From Holosporaceae bacterium (GTDB taxonomy: Bacteria > Pseudomonadota > Alphaproteobacteria > UBA3830): 33,880 nt of DNA. The stretch lies in NCBI GenBank assembly GCA_031283965.1, contig JAITAU010000059.1, forward strand, positions 1-33,880, given 5' to 3'. The notes under the pieces are model-generated. The model did no database searches, was not told the DNA's origin, and saw nothing but the letters and a program-made list of their open reading frames with translations. Made by a program: the position numbers and the translations under genes. Positions 3,382 to 21,171 of the stretch are shown here, one piece after another (position 1 is the first letter of the stretch; each line of letters opens with the position of its first letter).

Positions 3382-5001
3382 GTGCAACGTTTTCTGATAA
3401 TGTTTCTTCTGCTGCTGGTCGGATGTGTTAAAACGGATGGTCCGAGAACGCCGCAGCAGAGAAATCTCGATCCAAAGGCCTTCGAGCTGCTGTCCCGACC
3501 CATCGACGATCCAGCGTTCGACGCGGATGTGTCGGAGCCCTGGGAGGAGGATTTCGATCCGGAGCCGGTCATCCATGAAAATTTCTACAAACAAATCTCC
3601 ATAGCCGTCACCGAGAATATGAAAATGCGAGAGGCGCTGACACAGATGGCTAATCTCGCAGGCGTGAACGTCTTCATAGTGCAGGACGTTGAAGGAAGCA
3701 TCTCCTTCGTGGCGAAAAATCGACCATTTCTGGACATTCTGAAGGACATTTGCGGCGGCGCCGGCCTAAAATACTCCATCAACGGTAATTCCGTGAAGAT
3801 CGAATACGACTCCCCATTGCTAAAGGTCTACAACGTGCAGTTCCTGAACATTCAGCGGGATACCCAGAGTTCCGTTTCCATCTCCACAGATATTTTCGCC
3901 AGCCAATCAGTATCCACCAGGGGCGATTCCGGCACGCCAAACTCCAGCGCCGCCGTCAACAATGGCTCCAGTAGCTTTGTGGAGGGAAAGACGAAGAACG
4001 ATTTTTGGAGCGAGCTGGAAGGAGCTCTGAAGATCATCGTTGGAGAGGGAGACGGTTCCTACGTCTCGCTGCATCGGCAGGGCGGGCTTGTAACGGTGTA
4101 TACCACTCAAACTAAGCAGGAGGAGGTGCGGAAATATCTGCGTCTGCTGAAGGACACCACCGAATCTCAGGTGCTGATAGAGGCGAAAATCCTGGAGGTA
4201 AACCTGAGCGACGAATACAAAAACGGCATCAACTGGAACGTCCTACGCAGAGGCGGATTCTCCATCCGTAAGGACTTCGACAACACCGGATTGTTTGCGG
4301 CCGGCATAGACATGGAAAACTTGAGCGTCATGGTCGGTCTCGTGGAAAGATTTGGGGCCGTCAAAACCATCTCCAGCCCCCGCATCACCGTCCTGAATAA
4401 CCAATCGGCCATCCTGAAGGTGGCCAAGAATGAAGTCATCTATCTGCCGGAACTCCAGAGACAATACGCCACCGTGTCGGACAACAGAAGCACGGATTTT
4501 CTCTCCACAACCATCCACACCATCCCAATAGGGTTGGTGATGTCTGTGCAGCCGTCCGTGGACAGGAAGAGCAATACAATTCTGCTGAATCTACGCCCCA
4601 CAATCTCCAGAATCGCCGATTACAAGAAGGTGCCGTTCTTCTACAACACCACCGTCAGAGCGGCCGACGGCAACAACAATGTCCCTCAGGTGCAATCCCA
4701 GGAGATCCCCATCGTTGACGTGCGGGAGTTCGACTCCATCCTGAAGCTTCATTCGGGGCAGATCGTGGTCATGGGCGGTCTGATGCAGGAAAAATCCCGC
4801 AACAGCCGCGAAGGTTTCCCGCAGTTGAGGGAGATCGATTTCCTCATCGGCTCCAACGCCAAGACAACTGACGTCACCGAGCTGGTGATATTCCTGAAGG
4901 CCACGATTCTGCACAGGAAGAGCAAAATGCACCACGCCGCCGACAAGAAAGTCTACGACGCCTTCGCCTCCGATCCGCGCCCCTGGAGATTGAAAAAGTG
5001 A
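3382..5001 (+). CDS. Secretin-family outer membrane lipoprotein (MshL/PilN/GspD-like)
   Basis: Lipobox-like LLLLVGC; STN-like segment; secretin core VKTISSPRITVLNNQSAILKV...VQPSVDRKSNTILLNLRPTISRI...LHSGQIVVMGGLMQE. GTG start. Confidence 0.9.
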   Translation: MQRFLIMFLLLLVGCVKTDGPRTPQQRNLDPKAFELLSRPIDDPAFDADVSEPWEEDFDPEPVIHENFYKQISIAVTENMKMREALTQMANLAGVNVFIVQDVEGSISFVAKNRPFLDILKDICGGAGLKYSINGNSVKIEYDSPLLKVYNVQFLNIQRDTQSSVSISTDIFASQSVSTRGDSGTPNSSAAVNNGSSSFVEGKTKNDFWSELEGALKIIVGEGDGSYVSLHRQGGLVTVYTTQTKQEEVRKYLRLLKDTTESQVLIEAKILEVNLSDEYKNGINWNVLRRGGFSIRKDFDNTGLFAAGIDMENLSVMVGLVERFGAVKTISSPRITVLNNQSAILKVAKNEVIYLPELQRQYATVSDNRSTDFLSTTIHTIPIGLVMSVQPSVDRKSNTILLNLRPTISRIADYKKVPFFYNTTVRAADGNNNVPQVQSQEIPIVDVREFDSILKLHSGQIVVMGGLMQEKSRNSREGFPQLREIDFLIGSNAKTTDVTELVIFLKATILHRKSKMHHAADKKVYDAFASDPRPWRLKK

Positions 5002-5636
5002 GAAATATATTCCATAAAAATCGAGGATTTTCCTTGATAGAAGTGGCGATCGCAGTCGTGGTCATCGGCCTAATCGCCAGCTTCGCTCTGAAGGGGAAGG
5101 AATTGATTCACACCGCCAGGCTGCGCTCCGTGGTGGATCAGGTGAACGCCATCCGACTGGCCACCCAGACCTTTGTGGACAGGTACGGAGCTCTCCCGGG
5201 GGATTACACCAAAGCCAGGGAGATGATCAAAGATTCTCTGACGAACGGCCACGGCACCGGCGACATAATATCCGTTGAGGATGCTAAGCGATTCTGGCAG
5301 CATCTGGTGGCGTCGGAATTGGTGAGCCTGGAGCTGGTGAACGGCTTCCCCGTCAGCAAAGTCGGCGGCCACTATTCGGTGTCCTCGAATCTTGAAAACC
5401 GCAGCGGCATATGGATCATTTTGTGCCGCAGCACCATGGACAATCACAGCTTTGACGGAGCGCTATCGCCGGGCGACGCGCATTCCCTCGACAAAAACAA
5501 CGACACCGGAGACCCAAACACCGGTGAAATTCAGGCCGTTCGATCCGCGTCTGCATCTGGGGAGTGCTTTATTGGTTCAGAATATAATCTCAAAAATAAA
5601 AACAAAGATTGCGTTATCATGTTTAGGGTTTGGTAG
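4998..5636 (+). CDS. Type IV pilin/pseudopilin-like protein
   Basis: Prepilin signal RGFSLIEVAIAVVVIGLIASFALKGKELI with G/F cleavage site and Glu+5; VDRYGALPGDY motif; Cys-bracketed C-terminal Asp/Asn-rich loop. Overlaps the secretin stop. Confidence 0.88.
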   Translation: MRNIFHKNRGFSLIEVAIAVVVIGLIASFALKGKELIHTARLRSVVDQVNAIRLATQTFVDRYGALPGDYTKAREMIKDSLTNGHGTGDIISVEDAKRFWQHLVASELVSLELVNGFPVSKVGGHYSVSSNLENRSGIWIILCRSTMDNHSFDGALSPGDAHSLDKNNDTGDPNTGEIQAVRSASASGECFIGSEYNLKNKNKDCVIMFRVW

Positions 5637-12072: not shown

Positions 12073-14058
12073 TCAATATACCGCATTGCCATTTGTGGAG
12101 GAAAACCGCAGGATTTCATCGGCAGCTGAGACATGAGGAGCCTTCAGCATTTCTATCGCCTCAGTCAGCGCCTTTTTCTGGTTCATTGATTCATCGGGAT
12201 TAAGTAATCTCGTCGCCCATTGAAAAATGTTGTCGGCGGTACAGTTACTTTGCAGCAGCTCCGGCACAGCATTTCGTCCGGTGAGAATGTTCACCAGACA
12301 GACGTATTGTGTTCTGATCAGCAACCTCAACATCAGAGATGTGAATGGGGAGGTTTGATAGATCGCCACCATCGGAACGCCAGCCCTCGCCAGCTCCAGC
12401 GTTACGGTTCCGGAGGCTGCCACCGCCAGATGGGAGGAATAGTAGGCCAAGATCTTCTGGGATTTCTGAGGCAATATGACGGGTTTTTGCTCCCACTCTG
12501 CCACTCCATTCTCCACCAGTGGTATCAAATCCTCGACGGTGGGGATAAGGAAGCGCGCGTTGCCGTATTCCCGAACCATCCGTCGGGAAAATTCCCCCAA
12601 TAGTGGAAGATGTCGCTTGATTTCCGAAGGTCTGCTACCTGGAAGCAGCGTCACGATTTTACAGTCGTCATGATCCTGAATGTTGCAGAACAGCCGCAGA
12701 AAATTCCTGATATTTTGGTCGTTGGGCCTTTCGAAATCCGGGTCCGTAACCACCGGATGCCCTACGAAAACGGTTTTTAGACCATATCTGCCAAGCAATT
12801 TCTCCTCGAATGGCAACAGCACCAGCAATTTATCGATGAATTTATGCAGCGACTTCGCCCGCCACGGCCTCCAGGCCCAAACCGGCGGAGCAACGTAGTG
12901 TACCACGGGAATTTTATGGTTTCTTCCCTTGATTCTTTTATCAATGCGATGGGTGAAGCCGGAGGAATCTATTGTGACCAGGACGTCAGGCTGATATTCC
13001 AGGATTGCCTCCACCGTTTTGTTCAGGAGCCGCCACACATGGAGAATCTTCCCCAGCACTTCGAAAATCCCGATGATGGATAGCTCTTTGATGGAGAACA
13101 ACTTTTTCAGTCCGGCGTTTTCCATGCATCGACCTCCTACGCCGTAGAATTCCACTCTTCCGCCTGACGTTTTTAGGATGTCCTCCATTAGTCTTCCGCC
13201 AAGATAATCTCCGGAGGCCTCCCCCGCAACGAGAAAAATCTTTATTTTTGAAGCTCTTACCCCCATAAGGAACATTCCCAATTGGTCGGCGCGGTCGATT
13301 AGGGCTTGCCGATCCACGACAATGCAGCGGCCGCTCTCTACCGCCAGACCGTCGAAGCCGTTTTCCTTAAGTTTCTCGATAGTTTCTACGCCGACGACTG
13401 GAAGATCCAGGCGGTGATCCTGCTGTGGTTTGGACATTTTCACCAGCACTCCGCCGCTGGTAGTTTTTCTAGATTGGGCGCAATTTTCTATCAGAAAATC
13501 AGTGCCGCTTGCGGCTTCAGTTCCCAAGATTTCTCCATAGCAGACGGCCACCGACTGGCCCAGATCGTTCGCCCCCAGCCTCATGGCGGCTTCGACGCCA
13601 ATTTGGACGTCCAGCAGCTGCGACGCTGATGGTTTTCTTCGAGAAAAAAACCCTTCCGACAGAAAAATATCCTCCAGGAGATCCGTGCCGGAGATTATCT
13701 CGAAGCCCTCATGCGCCAGGAGGTTCGAGACAGCGCGCAGCAAAATATCATCGCCGGCGAAGATGGCCTTTCCGAGGCTTAAAATCCACCGGGCGCCGGT
13801 TTCGTCGAGAAGTAACTCATTGAATTTGGGGCGTTTCACCCGCCCGGCGAAGATGATTTTTTCCACTTTGTTTCTGTGGAAGAAGTCGATGGCCTTCCCG
13901 ATTTCACCAAAATTTACGGGCATTTTTTCAGAGGCCGGCCAGCCGTCCGGATGGCAGAAACCCTCCAGCAACAGCAGACAGAAATCCATCCTCTTACGGA
14001 CGCAAGCCTCAGCCACCAGGCGCGGATAATCGCCGCCTCCGCATATGATACCGATCAT
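12073..14058 (-). CDS. lpxI-lpxB: Fused LpxI (UDP-2,3-diacylglucosamine pyrophosphatase) - LpxB (lipid-A-disaccharide synthase)
   Basis: Residues ~1-267 are LpxI-like (MIGIICGGGDYPRLVAEAC, FAGRVKRPKF, GDDILLRAV, DLPVVGVETIEKL). Residues ~271-661 are LpxB-like (IKIFLVAGEASGDYLGGRLM, YVAPPVWAWRPWRAKSL, LLPGSRPSEIKRHLPLL, SGTVTLELARAGVPMV). No stop between them. Confidence 0.9.
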   Translation of the reverse strand: MIGIICGGGDYPRLVAEACVRKRMDFCLLLLEGFCHPDGWPASEKMPVNFGEIGKAIDFFHRNKVEKIIFAGRVKRPKFNELLLDETGARWILSLGKAIFAGDDILLRAVSNLLAHEGFEIISGTDLLEDIFLSEGFFSRRKPSASQLLDVQIGVEAAMRLGANDLGQSVAVCYGEILGTEAASGTDFLIENCAQSRKTTSGGVLVKMSKPQQDHRLDLPVVGVETIEKLKENGFDGLAVESGRCIVVDRQALIDRADQLGMFLMGVRASKIKIFLVAGEASGDYLGGRLMEDILKTSGGRVEFYGVGGRCMENAGLKKLFSIKELSIIGIFEVLGKILHVWRLLNKTVEAILEYQPDVLVTIDSSGFTHRIDKRIKGRNHKIPVVHYVAPPVWAWRPWRAKSLHKFIDKLLVLLPFEEKLLGRYGLKTVFVGHPVVTDPDFERPNDQNIRNFLRLFCNIQDHDDCKIVTLLPGSRPSEIKRHLPLLGEFSRRMVREYGNARFLIPTVEDLIPLVENGVAEWEQKPVILPQKSQKILAYYSSHLAVAASGTVTLELARAGVPMVAIYQTSPFTSLMLRLLIRTQYVCLVNILTGRNAVPELLQSNCTADNIFQWATRLLNPDESMNQKKALTEAIEMLKAPHVSAADEILRFSSTNGNAVY

Positions 14059-14843
14059 CGACGGCCTTCAGGGAGGCAGAAGGAGCGTTCGGTGTTCGCC
14101 CTCATGAAGCTGATCAGATGATGAACGCAATTCATGTGGGGAATGGCTTCATCCACTGCGTTTAAATTGTCGTGGATGGTGCCATTGCCGGAAAAAATAG
14201 CGTCGTAGGCTTTACATAGGGCGGAGATTTCAGCTCTATCCACTTCAGCACGCTTCAAACCAATGATGTTCAGACCGTATAGGTGTGCTCGTTCTCCCTT
14301 CACGGCTCCGTAGGGGATGACGTCCCGCTCCACGCCGGACATGCCGCCGACGATGGCGTTGCGACCGATGCGCACATGTTGATGGACCGCCGAAAGGCCG
14401 CCGATTATCACGTTGTCCTCGATTTTCACATGTCCACCCAGAGTGGCGTTGTTGCCCATGATCACATTGCTGCCGATAACGCAGTCGTGGGCCACATGTA
14501 CTCCAACCATGAACAGATTGTTGTCTCCAACGACGGTTTTCATGGCGCCACCGGCAGTTCCCGGATGCATGGTGACGTGTTCCCTGATGGAATTGCGGCA
14601 GCCGATGATCAACTGAGACTTTTCGCCTTCATATTTCAAGTCCTGAGGGCAAAAACCTATGGCGGCGAATGGAAATATCTTTGTCCCTTCTCCAACGACG
14701 GTGTGTCCCTCTAGGCAGACGTGGGAGGCGATTTCAACGTCATCCAGCAGTACCACATTTTCTCCCACAACGGAATAGGCGCCGATCTTTACGTTCTTGC
14801 CGATTTTCACAGATGGAGCAACGATGGCCGTTTGGTGTATCAT
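14055..14843 (-). CDS. lpxA: UDP-N-acetylglucosamine acyltransferase
   Basis: Hexapeptide repeats (IHQTAIVAPSVKIGKNVKIGAYSVVGENVVL), HVTMHPGTAGG, LNIIGLKRAEV. Confidence 0.96.
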   Translation of the reverse strand: MIHQTAIVAPSVKIGKNVKIGAYSVVGENVVLLDDVEIASHVCLEGHTVVGEGTKIFPFAAIGFCPQDLKYEGEKSQLIIGCRNSIREHVTMHPGTAGGAMKTVVGDNNLFMVGVHVAHDCVIGSNVIMGNNATLGGHVKIEDNVIIGGLSAVHQHVRIGRNAIVGGMSGVERDVIPYGAVKGERAHLYGLNIIGLKRAEVDRAEISALCKAYDAIFSGNGTIHDNLNAVDEAIPHMNCVHHLISFMRANTERSFCLPEGRR

Positions 14844-14851
14844 TTCTGCTC

Positions 14852-15328
14852 CTACGACACCACCACCATGGCGGTGAAAGTTGCTTCCGCCACCAGCGAC
14901 TGATCAACGTAGGCTTTTCCGGTGAAGCGCCACACATTCTCCCGACAGCGGTCTTTTTTCACGTAGAGGCGCAGGACGTCACCAGGTTCCACCAGTCGAC
15001 GGAATCTCACATTATCCATGGACATGAAATAAACCAGGCCGTTTTTCTTCTCCAGATTCATGGTTTTCGAAACCACCACTGCGGCGGTTTGACCCATAGC
15101 CTCCACGATCATCACCCCTGGCATTATTGGTTTAGTGGGGAAGTGTCCCTGGAAGAAATACTCGTTGACCGTTACATTTTTTATGCCGACGGCGCCTTCT
15201 CCAGGCCGCAGCTCCTCGATGCGGTCTATCAGCAGCATGGGATAGCGGTGTGGCAGGTGGCATTTTATTTCGTTTATGTCCAGATTGATCGGAGCGTCCT
15301 CCAGGTTAGCTTGTAAGTTATGTTCCAT
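14852..15328 (-). CDS. fabZ: 3-hydroxyacyl-ACP dehydratase
   Basis: LPHRYPMLLIDRIEEL, GHFPTKPIMPGVMIVEAMGQ. Confidence 0.97.
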   Translation of the reverse strand: MEHNLQANLEDAPINLDINEIKCHLPHRYPMLLIDRIEELRPGEGAVGIKNVTVNEYFFQGHFPTKPIMPGVMIVEAMGQTAAVVVSKTMNLEKKNGLVYFMSMDNVRFRRLVEPGDVLRLYVKKDRCRENVWRFTGKAYVDQSLVAEATFTAMVVVS

Positions 15329-15340
15329 GGTAAATTTCCG

Positions 15341-16363
15341 CTACTTTGTTTCCTTTTTTGCACTGACAGATTTTTTCAGAAACGCCACCTGTCTCTTCCA
15401 TGTCATGGCGTCGACGGCTGGAATGCCGCCAACGATTTCCCCGGCGTCGACGTTGGAAGCGACTCCGCTTTTGGCGGCGACAACAACCCGATCTCCGATC
15501 TCCAGATGGCCAACGACCCCCACCTGACCCGCTAACACTACGTCGTTGCCGATTCTGGCACTTCCGGCGATTCCCACCTGAGCCACGACGATGGTTCTTT
15601 CACCTATGACCACATTGTGGGCTATCTGCACCAAATTATCAATGATTGTGTCGCTGCCGATGACCGTATCTTCGATGCTGCCGCGGTCGATGGTGGTGTT
15701 GGCTCCGATGCGGACGCGATCGCCGATCATCACTCGCCCCAACTGCTTCACAAAAATCATTTCGCGGCCGGTTGGAATGATGCCGAAGCCGGATTCGCCG
15801 ATGCGGGCGCCGGAATTCACCAACACGTCTTTCCCCATGATGCAGTGGGAAATAGAGACGTTGTTGCAGATTTTACATCCGGAACCAATGCGACATCCTT
15901 TTTCGATGGTGGTGTTGGCTCCGATTGTTACTCGGTCGCCGATCTTCACATTTTCTCCAATCGACACGAAATTTCCGAGGAAACAATGGGCGCCGATCTC
16001 CGCCGTCTCGGAAATATGCGCGCCAGGGCAGATGGCTGGAGCAGGAGAATCTTCCGGATGCAAAACCTTCAGCGCCTTGGCGTAGCCGATGGTGGCGTTG
16101 GAATATACCAGACCGATAACGCCATTCGGCAGGTGTGAAAGATAAGCTTCGGTGAGAATTACGGCGCCGGCGCCGGTGTTTTTAAGGTCCTCCAGATATT
16201 TCTGGTTGCCGAAAAACGACAACTCTGTGCCGGTGGCAAGCTTCAGAGTGGCGACGCCGGAAATTACAAAATCCATCTCGCCAACAATCCGAAAACCACA
16301 GAGAACTGCCAGCTCGGAGATCTTAATTTTCCTGAATTCGTCGTAAAAATTCACGTCAATCAT
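15341..16363 (-). CDS. lpxD: UDP-3-O-(3-hydroxyacyl)glucosamine N-acyltransferase
   Basis: Left-handed beta-helix hexapeptide repeats with GANTTIDRGSIEDTVIG, NLVQIAHNVVIG, GIAGSARIGNDVVLAGQVGVVGHLEIGD. Confidence 0.96.
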   Translation of the reverse strand: MIDVNFYDEFRKIKISELAVLCGFRIVGEMDFVISGVATLKLATGTELSFFGNQKYLEDLKNTGAGAVILTEAYLSHLPNGVIGLVYSNATIGYAKALKVLHPEDSPAPAICPGAHISETAEIGAHCFLGNFVSIGENVKIGDRVTIGANTTIEKGCRIGSGCKICNNVSISHCIMGKDVLVNSGARIGESGFGIIPTGREMIFVKQLGRVMIGDRVRIGANTTIDRGSIEDTVIGSDTIIDNLVQIAHNVVIGERTIVVAQVGIAGSARIGNDVVLAGQVGVVGHLEIGDRVVVAAKSGVASNVDAGEIVGGIPAVDAMTWKRQVAFLKKSVSAKKETK

Positions 16364-19336: not shown

Positions 19337-20470
19337 TCACTCCATCAAACTAGAAACAAACTTATTCACCGCCTCGATGCGAAGGATATCATTCACCGTC
19401 GTAACCAGCATGAGAAGTATCAACAAAACTGCGCAGACCATCATAATACGTTCCTGCAATGTTTTGTTGAGTTTTTTTCTGATCACCTCTTCAACGAAAC
19501 AGATTAAAATCCTGCCGCCGTCCAGCACAGGCAATGGAAAGAGATTTATAAACCCGAGATTCAGCGACAGCATGGCGGTAAATATGATCAGCAGAGCGTA
19601 GTTGCCGGACTTCGTCAGATCGCCGGCCATGGAGGCCATCTGAACGACGCCGCTAAAGTCGTCCAGAGATTTTTTCCCGGAGAATAGCTTGCTTAATATT
19701 TTGCAGAATTCCATCGTGGCTCGATAACAACTCCTAAAACTGAATTGCACGGATTCAAACAATGATCGCTTCTCAAAAGTTGGCTTTCCGACGGATATGC
19801 CAACCAATTTGCTTTTCCTGACGCCTCCGAGAAGCTTTTTGGTCTCTTGTACCTCGGGAACAACGGAAATTGCGACCCGTCGCCCTTTTCGCTCGATAAC
19901 AAAATCCACGCGACCGGACTTGTTGTTAGCGATGGCCACGTCCACATCTCGATATCTTGAGACTCCTCTACCATCCACAGAGATTATTTTGTCTCCGGCA
20001 ACGATTCCGTGCTTCTTGGCAGCGCTATTAGTCGATACTTTTCCCACGACGGACGGATAATTAGGAAAGCCGTAGCACCAGCTCATGATCACGATCACCA
20101 GAAACGCGTAGATGTAGTTAAAAAACGGGCCGCAGAAGGCCACCAGCATCTTTTCCCAATTGTTTTTCGCGGAAAAAGAGAACTTTTTTTCCTCTTCGCT
20201 CAATGTCTGTAGCGCGGCGCCGTTCTCGGTGGCGGAGGCCATGTCTCCATCTCCCAGCATCATGACATATCCTCCCACCGGGAACGCAGATATACACCAA
20301 CGGGTTCCGTGTTTGTCATCGACGCCCCAAAGCTCTGGACCGATGCCGAGGGAAAACTTCGTGACCTTGACGCCAACAGTTTTGGCCGCCAGATAGTGGC
20401 CATATTCGTGCACGAAAACCACTGTGTTTATGATGACAAAGAACGAAACGAGATAGTAGAGAATGTCCAT
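19337..20470 (-). CDS. rseP: RseP-like site-2 intramembrane metalloprotease
   Basis: VVFVHEYGHYLAAK (HExxH), one PDZ domain, NLFPLPVLDGGRI. Confidence 0.95.
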   Translation of the reverse strand: MDILYYLVSFFVIINTVVFVHEYGHYLAAKTVGVKVTKFSLGIGPELWGVDDKHGTRWCISAFPVGGYVMMLGDGDMASATENGAALQTLSEEEKKFSFSAKNNWEKMLVAFCGPFFNYIYAFLVIVIMSWCYGFPNYPSVVGKVSTNSAAKKHGIVAGDKIISVDGRGVSRYRDVDVAIANNKSGRVDFVIERKGRRVAISVVPEVQETKKLLGGVRKSKLVGISVGKPTFEKRSLFESVQFSFRSCYRATMEFCKILSKLFSGKKSLDDFSGVVQMASMAGDLTKSGNYALLIIFTAMLSLNLGFINLFPLPVLDGGRILICFVEEVIRKKLNKTLQERIMMVCAVLLILLMLVTTVNDILRIEAVNKFVSSLME

Positions 20471-20481
20471 GTTATTAACAC

Positions 20482-21171
20482 CTAAAATAAAAGACCAAGT
20501 AGCGCCAACACCGTGGAAGCCAACAGTAGGCTATCGAGACGGTCCAGTATTCCGCCATGGCCTGGGAATATATCACCCATATCCTTGACGGAAATTTTTC
20601 TTTTGAAGCTGGATTCCAGGAGATCCCCGAAGATCGACGCCAGAATCATCGCCTGGACTACCCAGAAATTCGTGAGATCCTGGCACAGGCGGCCGCCATA
20701 TCTCAAAGTATCCGGGAACATCCAGCTCAGGAAGAAGAAGGCTACGTTGGCGACGATTATCCCTCCCCAAAAGCCAGCCCAGGTCTTGTGAGGACTGATT
20801 TTGGGACACAGTTTCGGCCCGCCGATGAGTTTTCCGAAGAGATAACCTCCGATGTCTGTAAAACTGGCCATGCAGATCAGGAGTCCACACCCAAGTGCTC
20901 CGAAAAATTCTCGACAGTAGACGAAGGAGCAGATGCCAACGAAACATACGACCAGAGCGAGGCCACGCAGCGGCAGTTTTCCCTTTATTTTCGGAGAAAA
21001 TATCTCGCAGGCCATTATGGCGAAGGTGATCCAGCACAAAATCGTAAACACCCGGCCGGAGACGTGGAAAAGCATAAAGATGAACGGAATGAACATAAAG
21101 GAGGACAGCAGGCGCACAAAAAATTCCTTCCTCCGGCCACAGTCTTCATACTTCACGGTTTCACTCACCAT
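20482..21171 (-). CDS. cdsA: Phosphatidate cytidylyltransferase
   Basis: Multipass membrane protein with SFTDIGGYLFGKLIGGPKLCPKISPHKTWAGFWGG and PGHGGILDRLDSLL. Confidence 0.95.
   Translation of the reverse strand: MVSETVKYEDCGRRKEFFVRLLSSFMFIPFIFMLFHVSGRVFTILCWITFAIMACEIFSPKIKGKLPLRGLALVVCFVGICSFVYCREFFGALGCGLLICMASFTDIGGYLFGKLIGGPKLCPKISPHKTWAGFWGGIIVANVAFFFLSWMFPDTLRYGGRLCQDLTNFWVVQAMILASIFGDLLESSFKRKISVKDMGDIFPGHGGILDRLDSLLLASTVLALLGLLF

Follow-up and report, generated by a model that had tools for sequence, protein, structure and literature searches.

Does a single alphaproteobacterial gene encode two consecutive enzymes of lipid A biosynthesis, and what could their union mean for the pathway? 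In the window (i.e., the whole 33,880-nucleotide stretch of DNA analyzed here, from a Holosporaceae bacterium assembly), a 661-aa ORF at 14058..12073 on the minus strand runs without an internal stop codon through an LpxI half and an LpxB half. It is the last member of a minus-strand gene order of lpxD, fabZ, lpxA, and the fused frame, and its start overlaps the lpxA stop by 4 bp (ATGA). The features are as follows.

15341..16363, minus strand: lpxD (PF04613)
14852..15328, minus strand: fabZ (PF07977)
14055..14843, minus strand: lpxA
13261..14058, minus strand: LpxI half, residues 1-266, consisting of the LpxI_N lipid-binding domain and the LpxI_C pyrophosphatase domain (PF17930 and PF06230; 4ggm/4j6e match; catalytic residues kept)
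13249..13260, minus strand: linker VRAS, residues 267-270 (junction comparison; structure model confident across the linker)
12073..13248, minus strand: LpxB half, a GT-B glycosyltransferase, residues 271-661 plus stop (PF02684 and TIGR00215; active-site residues kept)

Two other parts of the window deserve mention. A secretin gene (3382-5001) and a gene for a prepilin-like (N_methyl) protein (4998-5636) overlap on the plus strand, opposite to the lpx cluster; the pair may belong to a type II secretion system or to one resembling a type IV pilus. At 19337-21171 (minus strand), cdsA is directly followed by rseP, with dxr absent between them; dxr often lies between these genes in alphaproteobacteria.

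Domain completeness and structure model

Pfam domains cover nearly the full length of both halves (i.e., LpxI_N at residues 1-130, E = 2.5e-26; LpxI_C at residues 135-265, E = 4.5e-38; LpxB at residues 274-649, E = 4.3e-90). The fused protein also passes the LpxB equivalog model TIGR00215 (235.8 bits; curated cut-off, 190.25). Its match to the LpxI NCBIfam equivalog NF047836 spans positions 2-274 of 275 and scores 193.7 bits, below the cut-off of 400, which serves as an annotation threshold rather than as a biochemical definition. Given the clear Pfam domains, the catalytic residues, and the structure, we read this score as a sign of sequence divergence.

Residues of established importance in LpxI (Q169, T187, K214, and D225 in Caulobacter crescentus numbering; PMC6286764) are conserved in 29/29 fused proteins, and those of LpxB (E15, S17, D98, R201, E281, and N316; PMC5785501) are kept wherever a fused protein covers the position. 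Other positions are less constrained: N or E replaces LpxI D188 in 10 of the 29 proteins, one protein has S in place of LpxB T277, and the positions of LpxI N74 and LpxB F298 vary freely.

An AlphaFold2 single-chain model built on a 76-row alignment was of high confidence (mean pLDDT, 94.7; pTM, 0.83), and the linker is well defined in it, between strands 263-267 and 272-278. Among solved structures, those of Caulobacter LpxI and E. coli LpxB come closest. The modeled LpxI half lies much nearer to 4J6E, the UDP-2,3-diacylglucosamine (UDP-DAG)-bound D225A mutant (rmsd, 2.1; TM, 0.89 by target length), than to the lipid X-bound 4GGM. For the LpxB half, the match to E. coli LpxB has a large rmsd, as would be expected when a single chain is compared with the C-terminally swapped dimer of the E. 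coli crystal (PMC5785501). The LpxB part of the profile also matches a Tetrahymena respiratory complex I subunit (PDB 7tgh chain T1, 8gym_T1, and 8b6f_A0), deposited as a lipid-A-disaccharide synthase (i.e., an LpxB relative within a mitochondrial complex).

These results bear out the first-pass annotation, which had proposed a one-polypeptide fusion of LpxI and LpxB with almost no linker: about 4 residues separate the halves. Consecutive pathway steps are indeed joined in one protein. Neither half is truncated or has lost its key catalytic residues, and neither proved to be something other than a bona fide LpxI or LpxB. The LpxI domain is complete as described, and only its end required correction, from nucleotide 13255 to about 13258, where homology stops (residues 265-267).

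Conservation of the junction

The order of the source genome was sampled by 50 genomes. In five genera of its family (g1, g2, g4, g5, and g6), every genome in which the gene was detected, 28 in total, carries the in-frame fusion; one further g5 genome had no match. In one of the 28 (G063) the gene is spread across two contigs, the first of which contains the whole junction. The fusion recurs at 49-61% identity, and the linker measures 3-6 aa in the relatives and varies in sequence. The named relatives are "Holosporaceae bacterium" MAGs, and we read a termite-gut origin from their isolate names. A review describes an uncharacterized gut-derived clade of Holosporales, from termites in particular (PMC11909080). 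In genus g3 of the family (11 genomes with a match) and in three sister families (f2, f3, and f4), lpxI and lpxB are separate genes. The LpxB proteins of four g3 species (L083, L084, L085, and L086) carry an insertion of approximately 50 residues near window residue 455.

This distribution bears directly on whether the ORF could be a sequencing or assembly error, in which an indel in a run of G's merged two separate genes. The junction in the window (...GGA ATG TTC CTT ATG GGG GTA AGA GCT TCA AAA ATA AAG ATT...) does contain a run of five G's at 13264-13260, and the loss of one base would bring a TAA into frame. The first-pass annotation had allowed for four or six G's (i.e., separate genes), a reasonable concern. 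However, the fusion recurs in 28 separate assemblies whose junction DNAs are dissimilar and share no common homopolymer; the 27 other fused genomes of the family lack such a G run. Because the relatives carry the in-frame fusion with unlike junction DNA, they exclude a frameshift artifact, and we give an error next to no credence. The fused gene is genuine and is a conserved trait of its lineage.

Beyond the family, only one other in-frame join was found among 385 genomes of the class, in a lone, distant alphaproteobacterial MAG (G247; L074:10-2013, minus strand; 13-aa linker). No single match spans both halves in any of its three congeners, each of which has a second LpxB-like gene; the join may be an independent, young fusion or an assembly error. 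A search of 399 genomes of the phylum at E <= 1e-82, a cut-off that could miss distant fusions, returned no further case. Micavibrio and other candidates were rejected, as their genes are separate, either adjacent or distant.

A genuine fused frame could still yield two products if the polypeptide were cleaved after translation into its LpxI and LpxB parts or if LpxB were also translated from an internal start, in which case the fusion would have no functional meaning. An in-frame ATG at 13266 in the window, and some ATG, GTG, or TTG near the junction in 23 of the 28 fused genes, are compatible with this idea. However, the positions of these codons are not conserved, 5 of the 28 genes have none at all, no Shine-Dalgarno-like core lies beside any of them (0/28), and none of the fused genera has regained a stop codon there. 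Such a core accompanies the LpxB start in 17 of 56 split genes versus 0 of 28 fused genes, a weak test given the many split genes without one. Judged from these sequence features, a separate LpxB start is unlikely, and we consider two separate products improbable overall.

Evolutionary origin of the fusion

In the class, lpxI and lpxB are often neighbors in the same frame: among the 385 genomes, 26, including G037 of sister family f2, show a joined lpxI-lpxB match that is broken by a stop. In two genomes of f2, LpxB follows directly behind the LpxI stop in the same frame. Since only a lone stop separates such neighbors, a single stop-codon change can create the fusion.

On the history of the fusion within the family, the gene trees conflict. 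The LpxI tree places the fused genes in one clade (96/94) with g3 as sister, and the concatenated LpxI+LpxB tree does the same (99/97). The LpxB-only tree does not recover the fused clade, yet does not reject it (p-AU, 0.184). The lpx genes favor one fusion event, which is the simplest reading. The alternative is that the common ancestor of the family already had the fusion and that g3 secondarily split it. In agreement with this, the PheT and PheT+LepA trees place the fused genera g6 and g4 outside a group of g3, g1, g2, and g5, a single fused clade fits these data worse (p-AU, 0.22 for PheT and 0.0758 for PheT+LepA), and lpxI and lpxB lie on different contigs in some g3 species. The fission topology is nevertheless disfavored by LpxI+LpxB (p-AU, 0.0272), with LpxI alone concurring, and we regard a split in g3 as less likely than not.

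The fusion may also have been neutral, i.e., a stop lost between in-frame neighbors in a small-genome, drift-prone lineage, with the fusion persisting because it does no harm and the two activities present and coexpressed but not coupled further. The frequency of same-frame neighbors noted above and a genome of approximately 0.9 Mb fit this explanation. Against it stands the retention of the fusion across five genera, down to 49% identity and with a linker of 3 to 6 aa, although this argument is weak, since fission of fused genes is also rare. We therefore rate a neutral origin as a real possibility that falls somewhat short of even odds.

Predicted function and comparison with known systems

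The source genome contains lpxA, lpxD, lpxC, and lpxK. In its assembly (approximately 83% complete), neither a second LpxI or LpxB match nor an LpxH match was found. Since LpxC and LpxK are present while these are missing, the fused gene is probably the sole source of LpxI and LpxB activities in this assembly.

We predict from sequence, with a probability of about 0.85, that the protein is a bifunctional enzyme that makes lipid A disaccharide-1-phosphate from two UDP-DAG molecules and holds LpxI and LpxB at a ratio of 1:1. The LpxI half would hydrolyze one UDP-DAG to lipid X and UMP, and the LpxB half would join lipid X to a second UDP-DAG, yielding the tetra-acyl disaccharide-1-phosphate and UDP (net, 2 UDP-DAG + H2O -> disaccharide-1-P + UMP + UDP). 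LpxI and LpxB share one substrate, a point absent from the first-pass annotation, so they compete for it and need balanced rates; a 1:1 fusion fits the 1:1 demand for hydrolyzed versus intact UDP-DAG. Besides setting this ratio, the fusion would keep both enzymes together at the membrane, so that lipid X would arise at the site of its consumption. Activity of both halves is inferred, as is a limiting effect of their proximity on free lipid X.

Several points weigh against this reading. Genus g3, like nearly every other alphaproteobacterium sampled, manages with separate genes. The movement of the two LpxI domains and an LpxB swapped dimer as in E. coli would both have to be accommodated by the short linker. 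Two LpxI positions may also count against it: D188 gives way to N or E in roughly one in three fused proteins, and N74 is not conserved.

Direct channeling of lipid X, within one chain or in a 2:2 dimer, is a more doubtful extension of the bifunctional reading. Kinetic modeling of the E. coli pathway gave a large excess of lipid X, owing to this competition for one substrate, and led to the suggestion of LpxH product inhibition together with LpxH-LpxB channeling (PMC4412817); if channeling occurs here, the fusion would be a natural example of such a hydrolase-to-LpxB hand-over. The head group of lipid X is solvent exposed on LpxI (PMC5016852), and pathway intermediates that build up after LpxH depletion are toxic in A. 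baumannii (PMC4985137). Lipid X is detergent-like, and how cells keep it low and pass it on is a question on which the fusion bears. With its very short linker, this natural, conserved fusion lends itself to experiments on the coupling of both steps and offers a handle for the joint structure of two peripheral membrane enzymes.

The LpxI half resembles C. crescentus LpxI (4GGM and 4J6E) over its full length (approximately 35% identity; key residues kept), although that enzyme stands alone and the present one carries LpxB at its C terminus. Similarly, the LpxB half shares with E. coli LpxB (5W8S, 5W8N, and 5W8X) the GT-B fold, approximately 28% identity in the structural alignment, and the active-site residues, while the E. 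coli enzyme stands alone and the F298 position is variable here. The long LpxB model NF002173/PRK01021 (610 positions) also places LpxB at the C-terminal end of a longer chain; however, only its positions 226-601 match here, and the LpxI half has no match to its N-terminal part. An LpxC-FabZ fusion is known from Bacteroidetes, Chlorobi, and Verrucomicrobia (PMC3087551). As in that case, neighboring genes of the lipid A region are joined into one polypeptide, but the enzymes joined here are different, and LpxC and FabZ are not known to pass a product between them. Both enzymes of the present fusion are well known; no description of their fusion was found in the papers searched, and what appears new within that coverage is a conserved fused architecture that defines a lineage.
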